64,000 bases of DNA, taken from positions 1 through 64,000 of the forward strand of contig JAPOPW010000001.1 in the NCBI GenBank assembly GCA_026712715.1. Direction: 5' to 3'. The position numbers and the translations under genes are program-made. The notes below the pieces were generated by a model, which was not told the origin of the DNA, did not search any database, and saw nothing but the letters and a program-made list of their open reading frames with translations. Positions 1 to 7,435 of this stretch are shown piece by piece. Every line of letters starts with the position of its first letter. Positions within the stretch are counted from its first letter, which is position 1. The stretch comes from Immundisolibacterales bacterium (lineage in GTDB: Bacteria; Pseudomonadota; Gammaproteobacteria; HK1).

Positions 1-229
1 ATCAGCCGGAGATCCACAACCACCCTCGGAGGGGACCCCCAACACCGGTCTCCGAAAAAGATTCCCTTCCATCGGCTATCGTTCACCTCAGTGCCGGTGA
101 CGACAGCCCTCAACCGTCCACACGATCGGGTTAACCCCAGCCAGGCTCGGAGCACAAGAGCGCCGGAGGCGGTCCGCCGTGCGCGGGTGATGGGGCTCGT
201 TTCCGACGAGTGTCGAGCGCGTGCGCCGG

Positions 230-658
230 TCACCCTCCGGACTCCTCCCCTGGTCTTCTCCGTCCCGCGGTCATTGCCGCAATCAGGCGCTTCACCCGCG
301 CGGTCGTGACGAGCGAGCGTTCCTCGCCCAGAAAGGCGTAGGTCGCGGCGACCACGCTCGCCTTGTCCACCGGATCGAGAACGAAGTCGGATTCCAGGAG
401 CACCCGTTCGATCATGGCGATGGCCTCTTCCAGGCGCCTCTCGTCCACCTCCCCGACCACGCGGGGAGGGCCGACGTAGAACTCGAGCCCGAGCGCTTCG
501 CACAGGGTCCGGAACTTCTCGACGGAGCCGACGTGGCCCCGTCGAAGGTTGCGCACGAATTCGGGGCTTCCGCCAATCTGCCGGGAGGCGTGCCGGGCCG
601 ACCAGCCTCGGGCGCGAAGGGCTCGGTTCACCTCGTCGATCAAGTCTTCCATCTTCAT
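230..658 (-). CDS. Small helix-turn-helix DNA-binding protein
   Basis: A protein of about 142 residues. Its N-terminal half looks like a phage-repressor or HigA-type helix-turn-helix: 'ALRARGWSARHASRQIGGS' followed by 'EFVRNLRRGHVGSVEKFRTL' and 'LGLEFYVG'. This pattern is common in short predicted repressors with one N-terminal HTH. The C-terminal half is helical, with no motif I recognise. I chose the ATG at 658; an upstream ATG at 688 and an internal ATG at 652 are also in frame, and none has a strong Shine-Dalgarno. No toxin-like partner gene lies next to it, so an antitoxin role is not supported. It is divergent from the TadG-like gene and could regulate the shared 315-bp spacer; that is inference. 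Confidence 0.72.
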   Translation of the reverse strand: MKMEDLIDEVNRALRARGWSARHASRQIGGSPEFVRNLRRGHVGSVEKFRTLCEALGLEFYVGPPRVVGEVDERRLEEAIAMIERVLLESDFVLDPVDKASVVAATYAFLGEERSLVTTARVKRLIAAMTAGRRRPGEESGG

Positions 659-700
659 AAATTTGCAACATCCACGAGCGCCTGACACGCATTTGATGCC

Positions 701-728
701 TTGTAATGCGGTAATTTTTGCCTATACT
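701..728 (+). promoter_or_regulatory. Candidate sigma-70 promoter in the divergent spacer
   Basis: TTGTAA at 701-706 and TATACT at 723-728 are separated by 16 bp, in an AT-richer patch that stands out from its surroundings. It faces the TadG-like gene. The leader to the ATG at 974 would be long (about 240 nt). An in-frame ATG at 764 lies only about 35 bp downstream, so the true start of that gene may be further upstream than annotated. Confidence 0.4.
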
Positions 729-973
729 CCCGGGCGACAAGCCCTGGAGCAGCGGACGACGAGATGCGTTCGAGAGAGACAGCATCGACGAGAGCGAGAT
801 TCGCGCGGTTCGATTTTCCGGGGCTTGCGTCACTGCGACATGTGCACGCGTCCGCGCGACGCCATGCGCACCCGGCGAAACGGACGGCGCGGGTCGCGCC
901 GAACGCACCGTGCCGGTCCTCAGGTTCGCATCCCCGGGAGCGCAAGGTGGAAGGCACGACGACCGCGAAGAAC

Positions 974-2755
974 ATGCCTGGCGCCGCATCCGGACTGGAG
1001 GACCAGCGAAAGCTCCCGGATTGTTCTTCGAAGGATGCCTGCTACCGGTCGGGGCAGGGTCGGGATCCGGGCGCCTGGAATGGGAGCCGGGGCCGCGCCG
1101 CGGCCCGGGTACGGGCGTTCCTGCACCGGAAGGGAGCGCGGTGGAAACGCCTGGAGAGCTTCGTCCGCGGCGAACGAGGGGGAGCAACGGCCCTCGCCGC
1201 CGCCGCGTTGACCGTCATGACGGTCGGCGGCTCGGCGCTGACCATCGATCATCTCTGGCTCGTCGACCAGCGCGACACGCTCAAGCGCGCTGCGAATGCG
1301 GCGAGTGTGGCAGCCACGTCCGAGCTCAACAACCAACTGCGCGAGGACCCCGACGTGTCCGACGCGGCTCTCTTGGCGGTGCTTCAGGAGGTGGCGGAGC
1401 GATACCTCAGGATGAACCTGGAGCATCTGCCGAAGGACCGGCTCGACCAGGCGCAGGCCACCCTGGTCGTGAAGGTGACGCTGAACCGTGACGGACGTTC
1501 GGTAAAGGTCACCGCGGAGGCTGATCTCGGCGGCTTCATCCTTGGCGGACGGCTCCCGTTCCTCGCGGACGCGAGAGGGCCGGCGAAGGTCGGGGCCGTA
1601 TCGGGCACGGACACGCTGACCTCCCCGGTCGAAGTGGTCCTCGCCATCGATATCAGCGGTTCGATGAGTCTGGACCTCGCCGGGGTTTACAAGTCAACGA
1701 ACGCGACCCGGATGGAGATCGTCAAGGGCGCAGCCAAGTCCCTCGTTGACATCCTCAAGCCGAATGAGGCAGGTCGCGTGGCCATCGGAATCTTGCCCTG
1801 GAACCAGGTCGTGGCGCTCGCACCGGATGCAGCGCAGAAGTGGGCCAACTTCAACTGGGCGCGGTATCCGCGTCGACGCATGTACGGCGTGCCCTACAAG
1901 TGTGAACCCCACGGGAACTGCGCCGAACCAGCCGGCATCGAAGAAGATCTGCCGCCGGCGTCAGCGGCCGATCCGTGGAAAGGTTGCCTTGACGGTACCA
2001 GGATGGGAACGGGAGTGGGCACCCGGGCGTCCGTGCCCGATTCGGACGATTTCTTCACGCTTCCGTCTGCCAACCCGTTCGCGCAAGGGTTCTTTGTCTC
2101 GACCTACGGATCGGCGTACACATGCTTGGAAGACCCGTTGCCGGCGAGCTTTCTCGGGCAGCTCTGCCACGAAGGGAGTCCGCCAAGACCAGGACCTTCC
2201 AAGATTCCGTCGCAGTTGACCTGTAGGGCGGGTTTTCCGCAGATCTTGCCGCTTTCGACCTCCGAGAAGACGATTGACGACGCGATCGATGCGCTGACCC
2301 CGAAGGGCGGCTACACGTACTCGGCACTCGGCGTGCTCTGGGCCCAGCGTCTGCTCCACCACACATGGCGGAACGTCTGGGGCGGCGCCGTGCACCCGGT
2401 GGATGTGACACAGTCCGCGAACAAGGGGCTGCGCAAGGCCATCGTACTCCTCACCGACGGTGAGGACACGCACTGCGGCGAAGGAAACGAAAGCTGCGAC
2501 GCGAGCCCAATCGGCACTGCCCGCACGGACGCCTGCGACGAGGCAAAGGGACGAGGCACCGAGATCTTCGTGGTGGCGGCGATGAATCCGGACAGGATGG
2601 GGAGCGATTTCGAGACGTCACTCAGGGAGTGTTCGAGCGCGTCGCCCGACTCTGACACCAGGTACGTGTTTGTCAATAATTCGACCAAGGCGGAGCTTGA
2701 GGCGGCATTCGCGGACATCGCGAACCAGCTTCGCACCGTGCGCCGTTCGTACTGA
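974..2755 (+). CDS. TadG-like protein with von Willebrand factor A domain
   Basis: A protein of about 593 residues. A basic N-terminus is followed by 'ERGGATALAAAALTVMTVGG', the membrane anchor typical of TadE/TadG-family pilus-associated proteins, and then a pseudopilin-like helix ('RDTLKRAANAASVAATSELN'). A von Willebrand A domain follows: the metal-site motif 'DISGS' falls at residues 226-230 and a second VWA strand, 'AIVLLTDGEDT', comes later. Several cysteines ('YKCEPHGNC', 'HCGEGNESC') suggest a secreted, disulfide-bonded fold. TadG proteins normally sit in tad/flp pilus operons, but no other tad gene is present here, so it may be an orphan surface or adhesion protein. The start is uncertain: the frame is open back to an ATG at 764, but the extra 70 residues are arginine-rich and not TadG-like. 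Confidence 0.78.
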   Translation: MPGAASGLEDQRKLPDCSSKDACYRSGQGRDPGAWNGSRGRAAARVRAFLHRKGARWKRLESFVRGERGGATALAAAALTVMTVGGSALTIDHLWLVDQRDTLKRAANAASVAATSELNNQLREDPDVSDAALLAVLQEVAERYLRMNLEHLPKDRLDQAQATLVVKVTLNRDGRSVKVTAEADLGGFILGGRLPFLADARGPAKVGAVSGTDTLTSPVEVVLAIDISGSMSLDLAGVYKSTNATRMEIVKGAAKSLVDILKPNEAGRVAIGILPWNQVVALAPDAAQKWANFNWARYPRRRMYGVPYKCEPHGNCAEPAGIEEDLPPASAADPWKGCLDGTRMGTGVGTRASVPDSDDFFTLPSANPFAQGFFVSTYGSAYTCLEDPLPASFLGQLCHEGSPPRPGPSKIPSQLTCRAGFPQILPLSTSEKTIDDAIDALTPKGGYTYSALGVLWAQRLLHHTWRNVWGGAVHPVDVTQSANKGLRKAIVLLTDGEDTHCGEGNESCDASPIGTARTDACDEAKGRGTEIFVVAAMNPDRMGSDFETSLRECSSASPDSDTRYVFVNNSTKAELEAAFADIANQLRTVRRSY

Positions 2756-2964
2756 CCCATCGCCACAAGCTCGAACACGCGCGTACACGGCGAGACGGCA
2801 GGGTATTGCGCGATGGCGTGCATGTCGCTTCGTGGCGTCTCCGGGGACATCGGGGATGGATGTCCCGGGGCCGTCATCCGGGCCGGATCGCATGAATCCG
2901 TGCTCCCGGGGTTGGCTGACCTCTTGCGCACGACGGTGCCTGGAACCACGGGAAGCGCAGACGA

Positions 2965-3912
2965 ATGACGTTGAGGAGCCGGTACCGGACCCACCGGCGA
3001 AATCGGTACCGGCAGCTTCTCGCGTTCTGTCACGTGGCGCGGCTCGGAAGCGTCTCGAAGGCGGCGACGCCCTTGGGGACGACCCCCGGGACGGTGTCGG
3101 CTCTCGTGCGCTTGCTCGAGGAGGAGCTCAACGCGGTGCTGTTCGAGCGCGCGAAGAAGAGTGTCACCTTGACCGCAGCGGGCAAGCAGTTCTACGCGCT
3201 TGCAAATCCACTCGTGGAGGAGGTGGCGGTGCTGACCACGCCTTCTCCCGAATACGTCATGGAAGAATTGACGGGGCGCTTGGCCATTGCGACGAGCATG
3301 GTCGGCGGGGCCTTCGTGCTGCCACCCTACGTCAAGCGATTCCGCGATCGGTACCCGAGCGTGCATCTGCGGGTGAGCAACGGTACGCTCGGTGACGGGA
3401 TCGCGCGTCTTAAAGCCGGTGAAGTGGAGTTCCTGCTCGGAGAGCGCGAGGCTCCCGAGGACCACTCGCTCGAGTACAGCGAGGTGCTTTCCTACAACTT
3501 CGTGCTCATCGCTTCGCCTGATCACCCGCTTGCCGGTCGCGAGACGGTATCGCTGCAAGAGGCGGCGGGTTGGCCGGCGATCGTGCCTCCGCAGGGATCG
3601 TGCGGCTGGCGGTTCGACGAGCCGGAACTGCGCGAGTTCGGCTCCAAGGCAGACGTGGCGGTCATCGTTGAGGGATGGGGAGCGATCAAGGCCTGCGTGG
3701 AGCAGGGACTCGGGGTCTCGGCGGTGCCGAGCCTGTGCGTCGATGAGCGTGACCAATTGTCGGTGATTTCGTTCGGGATGCACTCTCCCGTGCGGAGCTT
3801 CGGGATCTACACTCGGCAGGACGGAACGCTGACGGAGTCCGCGCTCCATTTTCTTGCACTGATGTCTTCAGCGAAGGAGTGCACGGGCAAGCGGACAAGC
3901 GACGTGCGGTAG
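2965..3912 (+). CDS. LysR-family transcriptional regulator
   Basis: A protein of 315 residues, normal for the family. The N-terminal winged helix-turn-helix (about residues 17-75) reads 'FCHVARLGSVSKAATPLG', then 'VSALVRLLEEELNAVLFERA' and 'VTLTAAGKQFY', the usual LysR order. A substrate-binding domain follows, with 'GRLAIATSMVGGAFVLPPYV' starting the first lobe and 'GLGVSAVPSLCV' in the second. The closest look is to the CysB/Cbl type, but the inducer cannot be told. The neighbours are an orphan VWA protein and an unknown gene, so its target is unclear; many LysR proteins regulate a divergent neighbour, and here none is divergent. No strong ribosome binding site precedes the ATG. Confidence 0.88.
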   Translation: MTLRSRYRTHRRNRYRQLLAFCHVARLGSVSKAATPLGTTPGTVSALVRLLEEELNAVLFERAKKSVTLTAAGKQFYALANPLVEEVAVLTTPSPEYVMEELTGRLAIATSMVGGAFVLPPYVKRFRDRYPSVHLRVSNGTLGDGIARLKAGEVEFLLGEREAPEDHSLEYSEVLSYNFVLIASPDHPLAGRETVSLQEAAGWPAIVPPQGSCGWRFDEPELREFGSKADVAVIVEGWGAIKACVEQGLGVSAVPSLCVDERDQLSVISFGMHSPVRSFGIYTRQDGTLTESALHFLALMSSAKECTGKRTSDVR

Positions 3913-4683
3913 TGAGAGGTCACGAATTCTACCGTGCTGCATGTCCCCCGCCTTCCGACGCCTGACGGCGCTGGAGGCGCGCGGCGGATTCGGCAATCCG
4001 AGCGAGGGACGCTCCCGCTCTCGGAAACGGGTCTCCGCCACCGGGCAAGCCAGGTGCCGGGAGGGTGCCGGAAGCGGCTTCGACCATTGAGACCGAACGT
4101 GATCTCCGCCTCCATGGCTTCGGTGGCAACTTCCGGAACCGAAAGCGGGAATTCCCGATCGTTGCGAGCAGAACGCTCCATGATTGCAAGCGGCTACACA
4201 TAAAGGTGGCAGGAAACTGTAGTACCGACAACTGACAAGACTACGCAATTTTCTTTCGAAATCGTATTGCCCCGGCAACGTCAACCCTGTATGACTCTTG
4301 CGCTAGCGACGGCCCGGAGCCTGGGTACCCGTAGTGGCGAGCGGCCGTCAATGATTGGGCAACTCGGCGCACTGCGCACATTGCGATCCGCGGACTCGGT
4401 TCCGCTGTGAATTCCGCCTCTTCGTTCCCTTCCGATTGAGGGAGGGAGCCGACCGGGCAGTCCTCCTGGCCGGGTCCCGGCCTGGGCGGTCTCTCTGACG
4501 GGAGCCGTGCAACGCCCCTTCTCGGAGATTGGATGGGGAAGGCGGAGTTGCGGCAATGCTTGCGCACACCGAATCCGAATGGTCCAAGAAAGGACCTCGG
4601 CCCACTGCGCCACGACTCGGGAGCGCTCGCGACGCCGTGTCCGCCGTCGGCATCGCTTGGAGCTGGAGAGAGGGAGGAATGTT
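3913..4683. other. Gene-free stretch
   Basis: About 770 bp between the LysR gene and the next coding region. Short open frames exist on both strands, but their translations are arginine/serine/proline-rich and show no family resemblance, as expected for chance frames in GC-rich DNA. There is a short AT-richer patch around 4195-4275, but no convincing promoter pair, repeat or RNA fold was seen. Confidence 0.5.
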
Positions 4684-5283
4684 GTGGACGAGAACGAAAC
4701 GCGGCGCAAGATCGCGGCACTGACCGCGATCGTCCAGACGATGATGCACGAGGTCTACTCGGGACCCGGCGACGGGAGCGGCAGGAAGCGTTTCGACCTC
4801 CAGCTCGAGGAGGACGAGCTCCTCGCAATGGCGATTGCGAATGAGCTCGGCGAGGAGGAGCTTGGCCGGGCCTTCACCTGGGTGGAGGGGGCCAATGGAT
4901 CGAGCGGCGACGAGGTATCGGCGGGGCCCATTTCACCTCACTTGCGCGAGGAGCAGAGGAAGCGGGCCCGCATTGCGTTGCTGGCCGACCAGGAGGCAGA
5001 CCATGCGCACACCCTTGCGGTGCGGATGCCGGACCGTCCGGGCGAACCGTCGCTTACTACCGAAGACCGCATCAGGATCGGCGAGGAAGCGTTCCTGGGG
5101 CGAATCGAGATCGACGTGCTGCATGAACACGAAGGCTGGTCGGGATTCACGACGAAGGCGAAGCCGGGTCCGGATGAGAGGCTCGCGCACCTCCCCGAGC
5201 CATGGAGGAAACACGCGGAAAAAAGGCTGCCCGAGCTTCGGGCACGGCTGAAGGAGAGCCTCGAGAAAGAGGAAGGCAGGTAG
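4684..5283 (+). CDS. Hypothetical acidic protein
   Basis: A protein of about 199 residues, started at the GTG at 4684 because the purine-rich 'AGGGAGGAAT' lies just upstream and because the frame further upstream is arginine-rich and not protein-like. The product is rich in Glu, Asp, Arg and Lys, starts 'VDENETRRKIAALTAIVQTM', and ends in a charged helix, 'RLPELRARLKESLEKEEGR'. No signal peptide, membrane segment or catalytic motif is visible. I do not recognise the family. It is the last intact gene before the thyA remnant. Confidence 0.6.
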   Translation: MDENETRRKIAALTAIVQTMMHEVYSGPGDGSGRKRFDLQLEEDELLAMAIANELGEEELGRAFTWVEGANGSSGDEVSAGPISPHLREEQRKRARIALLADQEADHAHTLAVRMPDRPGEPSLTTEDRIRIGEEAFLGRIEIDVLHEHEGWSGFTTKAKPGPDERLAHLPEPWRKHAEKRLPELRARLKESLEKEEGR

Positions 5284-5408
5284 GCGGAGCCCGGAGAGTC
5301 TCCGTACCGGAACGGGAGCCCTCCGAGATGTCGGTACCGGACGACGAGGGATCGGTCCCAAAGAAGTTCCATCTTGTTTCAATGATTTGGTTGTCGCCCT
5401 GATCAACG

Positions 5409-5984
5409 ATGGCAATCTCGAAACCTTCGACCACGTCAGGTGAATCAGGACGGCCGTCGGATCTGAAGCTGACGGTGCGGGTAGTTGCTCGAGCGGGCGG
5501 CCGGGCAGGAACGGAGGCCAAGCAGGGCAACCGGAGATTCGGACCGGGGCCGGGACGGTGGGCTGCGCTCGGACTCGACGTCGCGACGGTCTTCGTGATC
5601 GACCGGCGCTTCGTCGTCAGCGCCCGGCTCCGCCGGGAGACTGTCCATGCACTAACATTCAGACCGGACCGGTTGCCGGGGGGGGCGGGCCAGGATCACG
5701 GTAAACCGATCAACGTCGCCTCCCGCTCGCTGCTGGCGATGATGGTGGCGAAGGTCGCCGGATACGAGCCGGAGGAGTTCGTGCACACGTACGGGGACGT
5801 CCGCCTCTGCCTGGACCACTTCGAACCGGCGGACCTCCAGCCCGTGCCGGAGCCGCAGCCGCAGCCGCTCCGGCGCGTGAGGCTCCGGCGCGTTCCGGCA
5901 TCGCTCCTCGACTCTCGCTACGGGGACATCGAGCTGCATGACTTTCGGTTTCATCCCGTGCTCCGGGCGCCGGAATCGGTATAG
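5409..5984 (+). pseudogene. thyA: Decayed thymidylate synthase (thyA) remnant
   Basis: The C-terminal half is clearly ThyA: 'PINVASRSLLAMMVAKVAGY' then 'EEFVHTYGDVRLCLDHFE', 'ADLQPVPEPQPQPL' and 'YGDIELHDFRFHP' match in order the ThyA blocks PFNIASYALL, G(D/E)FV-T-GD-HLY-NH, LQLSREPRPLP and DFEIEGYDPHP. Upstream, 'DRRFVVSA' fits the conserved RR-(I/L/F)VSAWN block. The next block, which should carry the catalytic Cys (PCHALFQF), is reduced to 'TVHALTF', with Val in the Cys position and about 15 residues missing before PINVAS. The first ~140 residues of ThyA are absent; residues before about 5595 do not resemble ThyA. The frame is open, so a protein could be made, but it could not act as thymidylate synthase. 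It lies 3 bp upstream of folA, the usual thyA-folA order. Confidence 0.82.
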
Positions 5985-5987
5985 CCC

Positions 5988-6494
5988 GTGCTCGTGTCAG
6001 TAGTCGCCGCGGTCGCCCGCAACCGGGTCATCGGGATCGAGAATCGTCTGCCCTGGCACCTCCCGGCCGATCTGAAGCGCTTTCGCGCGATCACCTGGGG
6101 CAAGCCTGTCGTCATGGGACGCTTGACCCACGAATCCATCGGCCGGCCGCTCCCCGGCCGGCGCAACATCGTCATCACCCGCCACGGACCCGTGATGGAC
6201 GGGTGCGAGCGCGCGGCCTCCCTCCGAGACGCGCTCGCCCTGACCGCGGGTGCGCCCGAGACCGTGGTGATCGGCGGGGCGCGGTGCTACCGCGAGGCGC
6301 TGCCGCTCAGCCGTCGCCTGTATCTCACCCGGATCGATGCGGACTTCGCGGGCGATGCGTGGTTTCCCGAGTGGGACGCGGGCGAGTGGCGGCAGTGCGA
6401 GCACGAGCGCGTGGAGGCTGGCGAGGCGTCCCCCTTCGGCTACGAATTCCTCGTTCTCGAACGGCAGTCCACCGACCGCACCTCGCCGCTTTGA
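5988..6494 (+). CDS. folA: Dihydrofolate reductase
   Basis: Reduces dihydrofolate to tetrahydrofolate with NADPH. A 168-residue protein with the DHFR landmarks: 'VVAAVARNRVIGIENRLPWH', the active-site Asp in 'LPADLKRF' (about residue 28), 'VVMGRLTHESIGRPLPGRRN' (NADPH binding) and 'VIGGARCYREALP'. I used the GTG at 5988, directly after the stop of the thyA remnant; a second GTG two codons on is possible. The last 55 bp overlap the end of the convergent apaH. Folate genes folKP and the cyclo-ligase lie 17 kb away. Confidence 0.95.
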   Translation: MLVSVVAAVARNRVIGIENRLPWHLPADLKRFRAITWGKPVVMGRLTHESIGRPLPGRRNIVITRHGPVMDGCERAASLRDALALTAGAPETVVIGGARCYREALPLSRRLYLTRIDADFAGDAWFPEWDAGEWRQCEHERVEAGEASPFGYEFLVLERQSTDRTSPL

Positions 6495-7270
6495 AGGTCG
6501 AGCGCGGTCAGGCGACCTCCCCATACGCACCCGGTGTCCACGTGGCGGATGCGCTCGCGTGCCGCGAGCCCGGGATCGAGCTGCAGGTTGGCCCAGTGGC
6601 CGAACACGATCCGCTCACCGCGGGATCGGCGACCCGGCGCCGAGAACCAGGGAACGAGTCCGGCGGGCCGTTGCTCCGGCGGCCCGGAAAATGCGAGATC
6701 GAGCCGGCCGGCCCCGGTCACGCAGCGGATCCGGGTAAGGGCGTTCAGGGTGTAGCGGAGCCAGCCCGGGTCGGAGCCGGCCGCCTCTTCCGCGGATGCC
6801 TCGTTGCCGTACATGAGGGAGAGGAACGCAGGAGCGCGCGGCCCGGCCAGGACGCGCTCGACCTCCGCCGCTTGCCGTCGCGCGGTGGCGACGTCCCACT
6901 CGGGCGGAAGCCCGGCATGGACCATGGTCCAGCCGAGCGCGTGGTCCTGGTGCACGAGGGGGCGCGTCCGCAGCCAGTCGAGAAGTCGTGCGCGATCCGG
7001 TGCTTCCAGCACCGGCCCGAAGGTATCGGCAGCCTGGACGGGCCGCGCACCGTGCGCGACCGCGAGCAGGTGCAGGTCGTGGTTGCCGAGTACGCACACC
7101 GCGCCGAGCTCCATCGCCCGGCGGAGCACTCCGAGCGAATCGGGGCCGCGGTTCACGAGATCGCCGGCGAGCCAGATGGCATCCCTCGCGGGGTCCGGAT
7201 CGAGCCGGTCGAGGAGCGCCTCGAACGCCTCGAGGCAACCCTGTACGTCGCCGATGACCCAGGTGGCCAT
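6440..7270 (-). CDS. apaH: Symmetrical bis(5'-nucleosyl)-tetraphosphatase ApaH
   Basis: Hydrolyses diadenosine tetraphosphate (Ap4A) to two ADP and, in E. coli, removes Np4 caps from RNA. A 276-residue protein with the phosphoesterase metal motifs 'GDVQGC' (from residue 7), 'AGDLVNRGPDS' (about 35) and 'LGNHDLHLL' (about 61). The C-terminal 'IVFGHWANLQ' and 'HVDTGCVWGGRLTALDL' are typical of ApaH. I chose ATG 7270 ('MATWVIGDVQGC') because the 17 upstream in-frame codons fall inside dispersed repeat copy A and are not conserved ApaH sequence. In many gammaproteobacteria apaG-apaH-folA is a unit; here apaG lies 390 bp upstream and folA converges. Confidence 0.95.
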   Translation of the reverse strand: MATWVIGDVQGCLEAFEALLDRLDPDPARDAIWLAGDLVNRGPDSLGVLRRAMELGAVCVLGNHDLHLLAVAHGARPVQAADTFGPVLEAPDRARLLDWLRTRPLVHQDHALGWTMVHAGLPPEWDVATARRQAAEVERVLAGPRAPAFLSLMYGNEASAEEAAGSDPGWLRYTLNALTRIRCVTGAGRLDLAFSGPPEQRPAGLVPWFSAPGRRSRGERIVFGHWANLQLDPGLAARERIRHVDTGCVWGGRLTALDLQSGEVRSVDCRSRTRNS

Positions 7271-7272
7271 CC

Positions 7273-7435
7273 TATCGAGGCCGCGCCTCGGACCGACGAG
7301 ACCGGTTCGAAGCCCCCTCATCCTTGTTCGAGACCCGGCCGCTCCGTAGCGGCAGCAGCCTCGTGCGTTTCGTTCCAGAAACCGATTCGCAAACTTGACT
7401 CATTTGTAAGGATCGAGCCCTCTCAAGGAGTCCAG
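7273..7435 (+). repeat. Dispersed 162-bp intergenic repeat, copy A
   Basis: About 163 bp that recur at 16382-16543 and, inverted, at 37358-37519. Shared blocks in order: CGAGG(C/T)(C/T)GCGCC, GTTCGAAGCC, CCTTGTTCGA(G/A)ACCCGG, a central stem-loop, GCAAACTTGACTCAT (shared with copy C), and CTCAAGGAGTC near the end. The stem-loop here is GCCGCT-CCGT-AGCGGC at 7338-7353. The copy lies directly upstream of the apaH start codon. Confidence 0.88.

Follow-up and report, generated by a model that had tools for sequence, protein, structure and literature searches.

A native thyA gene probably displaced in place by a foreign thymidylate synthase gene in an Immundisolibacterales bacterium

A question raised by this locus is how the cell makes thymidylate when the thymidylate synthase gene (thyA) beside its folA gene is a fragment. 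The locus lies in a window of 64,000 nucleotides (the whole stretch of DNA analyzed here, positions 1 to 64,000 of JAPOPW010000001.1), which is on contig C82 of an assembly (G000) of 5.05 Mb in 82 contigs with an estimated contamination of 4.96%. The original prediction held that thyA in the window is a truncated remnant, and this is borne out by the open reading frame at 5409-5984, in which only residues 98-188 match the ThyA profile PF00303, covering positions 175-263 of its 266 (E = 3.9e-14). Alignment with ThyA of Escherichia coli and of two same-genus genomes, G002 and G001, places the native 3' remnant, a predicted pseudogene extending from about codon 175 to the stop codon, at 5706-5984 on the forward strand. 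It comprises only the last third of ThyA, with folA directly downstream. Native sequence starts with the residues P-I-N-V-A-S at 5706, and the number of missing residues is about 174 rather than the roughly 140 that had been proposed. The catalytic cysteine and the N-terminal two thirds of the protein, which a functional ThyA requires, are absent from the open reading frame.

The sequence joined in frame to the remnant (5409-5705, forward strand) has no ThyA homology. Residues 1-97 of the open reading frame have no Pfam match and are unlike the thyA genes of G001 and G002, and DNA similarity of the window to these two genomes begins only at 5684/5706. Since residues 1-97 are not ThyA, the tripeptide TVH within them is not a mutated PCH catalytic block, as had been suggested, but a chance reading within unrelated sequence, and the gap of about 15 residues thought to precede PINVAS does not exist. 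The remnant itself is dead and has decayed further. It retains N177 (E. coli numbering) and has arginine in place of H207 and cysteine in place of Y209, as seen when it is aligned with the E. coli, G002 and G001 proteins. H207 and Y209 are conserved residues of ThyA that contact dUMP. The remnant has dN/dS values of 0.61 and 0.42 against the two same-genus genomes, and folA next to it has 0.24 and 0.28; with only 89 codons in the remnant, this is a modest signal of relaxed selection. The folA gene (5988-6494, forward strand) is intact, as predicted, with a full-length match to the dihydrofolate reductase profile PF00186 (DHFR_1; E = 9.5e-55), and its low dN/dS indicates that it is probably under purifying selection. 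It is followed by an apaH-like gene for a calcineurin phosphoesterase (6440-7321, reverse strand; PF00149), which is syntenic with G001 and lies in a region of DNA synteny with both G001 and G002.

The original prediction reasoned that another thymidylate source is needed and named ThyX or a second ThyA. No match to ThyX (PF02511) was found anywhere in the G000 assembly, which rules out ThyX as the alternative source of dTMP, and a search with PF00303 found no full-length native thyA anywhere in the assembly. That search identified four ThyA pieces, two on contig C19 and one each on C46 and C82. With no ThyX in the assembly and a second ThyA-type gene on C19, it is the second-ThyA branch of the prediction that is correct. 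The order of genes on C19 is lgt (TIGR00544), a stub of about 20 codons from the start of the native thyA (MKRYLDPCVRVRRDRTRTGTL), a foreign thyA (thyA#1) that is broken at about codon 67 and, some 250 bases beyond it, another foreign thyA (thyA#2) that is interrupted only by the end of the contig. Up to N177, after which the contig ends, thyA#2 keeps all of the catalytic and dUMP-contact residues that were checked. Contig C46 likewise ends in thyA#2, and C19 and C46 have exactly their terminal 141 bases in common. This suggests that the assembly graph forks there with a k-mer of 141 (the assembler used is not named), so that the interruption of thyA#2 most likely stems from the assembly. The last third of the foreign thyA, on its 3' side, is missing from the G000 contigs, and the gene is judged complete by reference to G001 and to the termini that C19 and C46 share.

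Judged by its sequence, thyA#2 on C19 apparently works as a thymidylate synthase, and since the assembly has no thyX and no other thyA, we infer that the foreign enzyme is the working thymidylate synthase of the cell. Because the ThyA reaction produces dihydrofolate, a cell that relies on it continues to need FolA. The original prediction found the intact folA puzzling, as ThyX would relax the need for FolA; the puzzle disappears if the replacement is ThyA-type and makes dihydrofolate, which would explain why folA has been kept intact. A perfect 24-base palindrome lies between the broken thyA#1 and thyA#2 on C19 (L005 6086-6109), and no other copy of the sequence to the left of thyA#2 was found in the genomes searched. 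The thyA on C46 (L006 5700-5965) is a mosaic, in which the 5' part (#3) is 52-56% identical to thyA#2 and the sequence from GGGGTGGAACGTAG onward is identical to it; an apparent truncated histidine kinase C-terminus, read by eye, precedes it on the minus strand. The mosaic implies that recombination between thyA copies occurs and, taken together with the broken thyA#1, that thyA has been hit or recombined repeatedly in G000.

The arrangement that is spread over two contigs in G000 is found complete on a single contig (C83) in G001 (JAJDXW010000128), a Gammaproteobacteria MAG. The gene order there is lgt, native thyA head, foreign ThyA gene, cupin, ricin-B lectin, cation efflux, MFS, native thyA tail, folA and apaH. 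The native head and tail of G001 match PF00303 positions 2-86 and 177-266, respectively, and the foreign ThyA matches the profile over its full length (2-266; E = 9.8e-99) with the catalytic cysteine, R166, D169, N177, H207 and Y209 in place. The ends of the DNA alignment indicate that about 5.65 kb took the place of 284 bases of the native gene. In G002 the lgt-thyA-folA-apaH segment is intact on one contig with the same synteny. Remnants of the native gene thus flank the insert on both sides in G001, and the corresponding head (lgt side) and tail (folA side) are both present in G000, on C19 and C82, which are unjoined.

We consider it highly probable (roughly 0.87) that foreign DNA with its own ThyA gene invaded the lgt-thyA-folA locus and that the native thyA was displaced in place. 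According to this model, foreign DNA with a complete ThyA-type thymidylate synthase gene would have entered the native locus, and the native thyA would have been broken with loss of its middle, leaving a short head after lgt and the tail before folA that is seen in the window. The foreign thyA would then have taken over dTMP synthesis, leaving the native tail to decay without function. Rearrangement between C19 and C82 is possible as these contigs are unjoined, and the estimated contamination of the MAG is a further caveat.

The foreign ThyAs are xenologues of the native enzyme and not recent duplicates of it. The foreign ThyAs of G001 and G000 are 75% identical over shared columns, and outside this pair the nearest identity is 53.5%. 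In a quick tree they fell into a starred clade together with ThyAs encoded on plasmids, separate from the clade that the native ThyAs of the class form. The closest relatives found are the ThyAs of the Pseudomonas sp. FeN3W megaplasmid (CP136011; 53.5% identical) and of the Rhizobium plasmid pRlX5 (49% identical), the record of which carries no annotation. The neighbours of the FeN3W gene are sbcB and radical-SAM genes rather than lgt and folA. A viral origin was rejected, as no relative on a viral contig exceeds 42% identity and most of them branch elsewhere in the tree. The motif that is usually PFNIAS reads SNQVGL or GGNLIGL in the foreign ThyAs (the G001 copy at L039 11945-12910 and thyA#2 of G000); the dUMP-binding asparagine is retained within this equivalent and the flanking residues are unusual.

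A sequence shared by the breaks bears on how the foreign DNA arrived. At the thyA breaks of C46, C19 and G001, the insert side carries a similar sequence of about 36 bases (CGsTTyACTnnGATCC...CCGyTTCGnnCGAA). It occurs at three positions in different thyA genes (codons ~67, ~100 and 175/177) and always faces thyA. The similarities between the C46 and C19 junctions and between the C46 and G001 junctions were reached by only 5-11 of 20,000 random 50-mers, drawn from a pool in which the junctions were also present; compared directly, the C19 and G001 junctions are more weakly similar (about 450-500 of 20,000 random draws). A 16-mer from C46, with two mismatches, occurs at five places in the three genomes, three of which are thyA breaks, one being the query itself. 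A profile built from the three junctions found no other convincing copy in G000-G002 and, among 369 genomes sampled from the class, matched only in G000; that it scores its own training sequences best is so by construction, and the informative part is the lack of other copies. In the window, a candidate decayed copy facing thyA lies at 5685-5708 on the reverse strand and is the best match to model R1 in 5000-6500 (8.8 bits, E = 0.0035 for this 1.5 kb; alignment A1). The model was not trained on 5685-5708, and the similarity is weak in an unregistered alignment.

One alternative for the route of entry, to which we give somewhat less than even odds, is that the foreign thyA replaced the native gene with no dedicated element, entering by illegitimate or homology-assisted recombination, and that the shared breakpoint reflects descent from one event together with exchange between lineages. 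The contents of the ~5.65-kb G001 insert, with its cupin, ricin-B lectin, cation efflux and MFS genes, fit this scenario, as no recombinase, integrase or transposase was found in that complete insert (the G000 insert is incompletely assembled) and no matching end was found at its left side. The mosaic thyA on C46 also fits, as it testifies to recombination between thyA copies. Against it, the junction sequence recurs at three positions in different thyA genes in the same orientation and has no other convincing copy in G000-G002. Moreover, G001 and G002 are the closest pair (about 84% DNA identity, compared with about 78% for either against G000), yet the break is common to G001 and G000 only. 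This sharing would require either two events at one site, or transfer of the block between lineages, or recovery of the native gene by G002.

The recurrence of the junction sequence suggests delivery by an element, with the sequence common to the breakpoints as its end. A stronger version, which we regard as doubtful, is that this gammaproteobacterial genus harbours a family of elements with a preference for insertion into thyA, an end of ~36 bases and a thyA of their own, so that each arrival kills the resident gene and becomes indispensable, with successive waves breaking the thyA of the earlier invader. Such waves would explain the native, #1, #2 and #3 thyA fragments in one genome. Our doubt stems from the complete G001 insert, in which neither a recombinase nor a matching left end was found. 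Several other explanations were considered and rejected: a dispersed insertion sequence bearing the shared end (no convincing copies beyond the thyA junctions in G000-G002), an RNA element such as a group I or II intron at the breaks (no Rfam match at gathering thresholds in four related loci), a tRNA attachment site (no tRNA nearby) and hairpin-type ends (folding no better than shuffles). A viral origin of the end was likewise rejected, since the short pattern matches viral contigs exactly at 80 places, apparently by chance, and the best of these matches (L214) has no thyA in its vicinity. Elsewhere in the window, the search against Rfam gave only a weak match (E = 0.36).

It is very improbable that displacement of the native thyA is an illusion created by mis-joined contigs or mixed strains, with a normal native thyA present at the locus. 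The fragmentation and estimated contamination of the MAG, the identical 141-base termini of C19 and C46 and the start of C82 in a repeat would be expected of such a chimera, but the separate MAG G001 has head, foreign thyA and tail on one contig with the same 3' codon break, which makes an assembly error at 5400-5700 unlikely. The tail on C82 has lost conserved residues and has a raised dN/dS, and a full-length native thyA is nowhere in the assembly. Thymidine auxotrophy, in which dTMP synthesis was lost and the cell scavenges thymidine, would accord with the dead native thyA in the window and is very improbable given the ThyA-type gene on the lgt side with its active site intact to N177 and the purifying selection that apparently still acts on folA.

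The proposed displacement of thyA has a parallel in Pseudomonas putida KT2440, in which a 65-kb genomic island splits tmk, and a phage-like dNMP kinase borne on the island, PP_1964, is the only working thymidylate kinase (PMC10653934). The same study describes kindred islands that interrupt tmk in other genera. In both cases an essential gene of the dTMP pathway is split in place by DNA that supplies a substitute for the same step, what is left of the resident gene is non-functional (for thyA, as predicted from sequence), and the arrangement recurs, in other species for the KT2440 islands and in G001 for thyA. The thyA case concerns the step preceding that of tmk. The KT2440 replacement, a T4-like dNMP kinase, is only distantly related to the resident Tmk, whereas here a xenologous ThyA would replace a ThyA, and its function is inferred whereas that of the KT2440 replacement is proven. 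In addition, the KT2440 island is prophage-like with tyrosine recombinases, whereas no recombinase was found in the thyA case. Exchange of ThyA and ThyX between lineages, in which a horizontally acquired thymidylate synthase displaces the resident enzyme, is well established and is reviewed, for example, in PMC5954106; unlike that exchange, the locus described here has ThyA replacing ThyA from inside the resident gene, with both gene ends left. Displacement of thyA would be a further, independent case in the dTMP pathway, and the intact, displaced and decayed states of thyA are all visible in one genus, with signs of repetition at this gene. Should an element that both targets and supplies thyA exist, it would have a simple addiction strategy, as a cell that lost the element would also lose its DNA precursor.

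In a family relative, G009, the only thyA (C4:14223-14910) lacks profile positions 181-214 and has a changed frame, which may represent another lesion near the same codon or an assembly error. The DNA upstream of the remnant in the window (1-5684), which has no counterpart at the thyA locus in G001 or G002, has a VWA/TadG-like open reading frame (764-2755), a LysR regulator and open reading frames with no assigned function. Positions 1-140, where C82 begins, lie inside a multi-copy repeat with copies that are 89-100% identical on C14, C24, C26, C11 and C33, mostly near contig ends. The stretch at 1112-2817 recurs with 83% identity at G000:C41:78608-80315, and there are further scattered partial copies.
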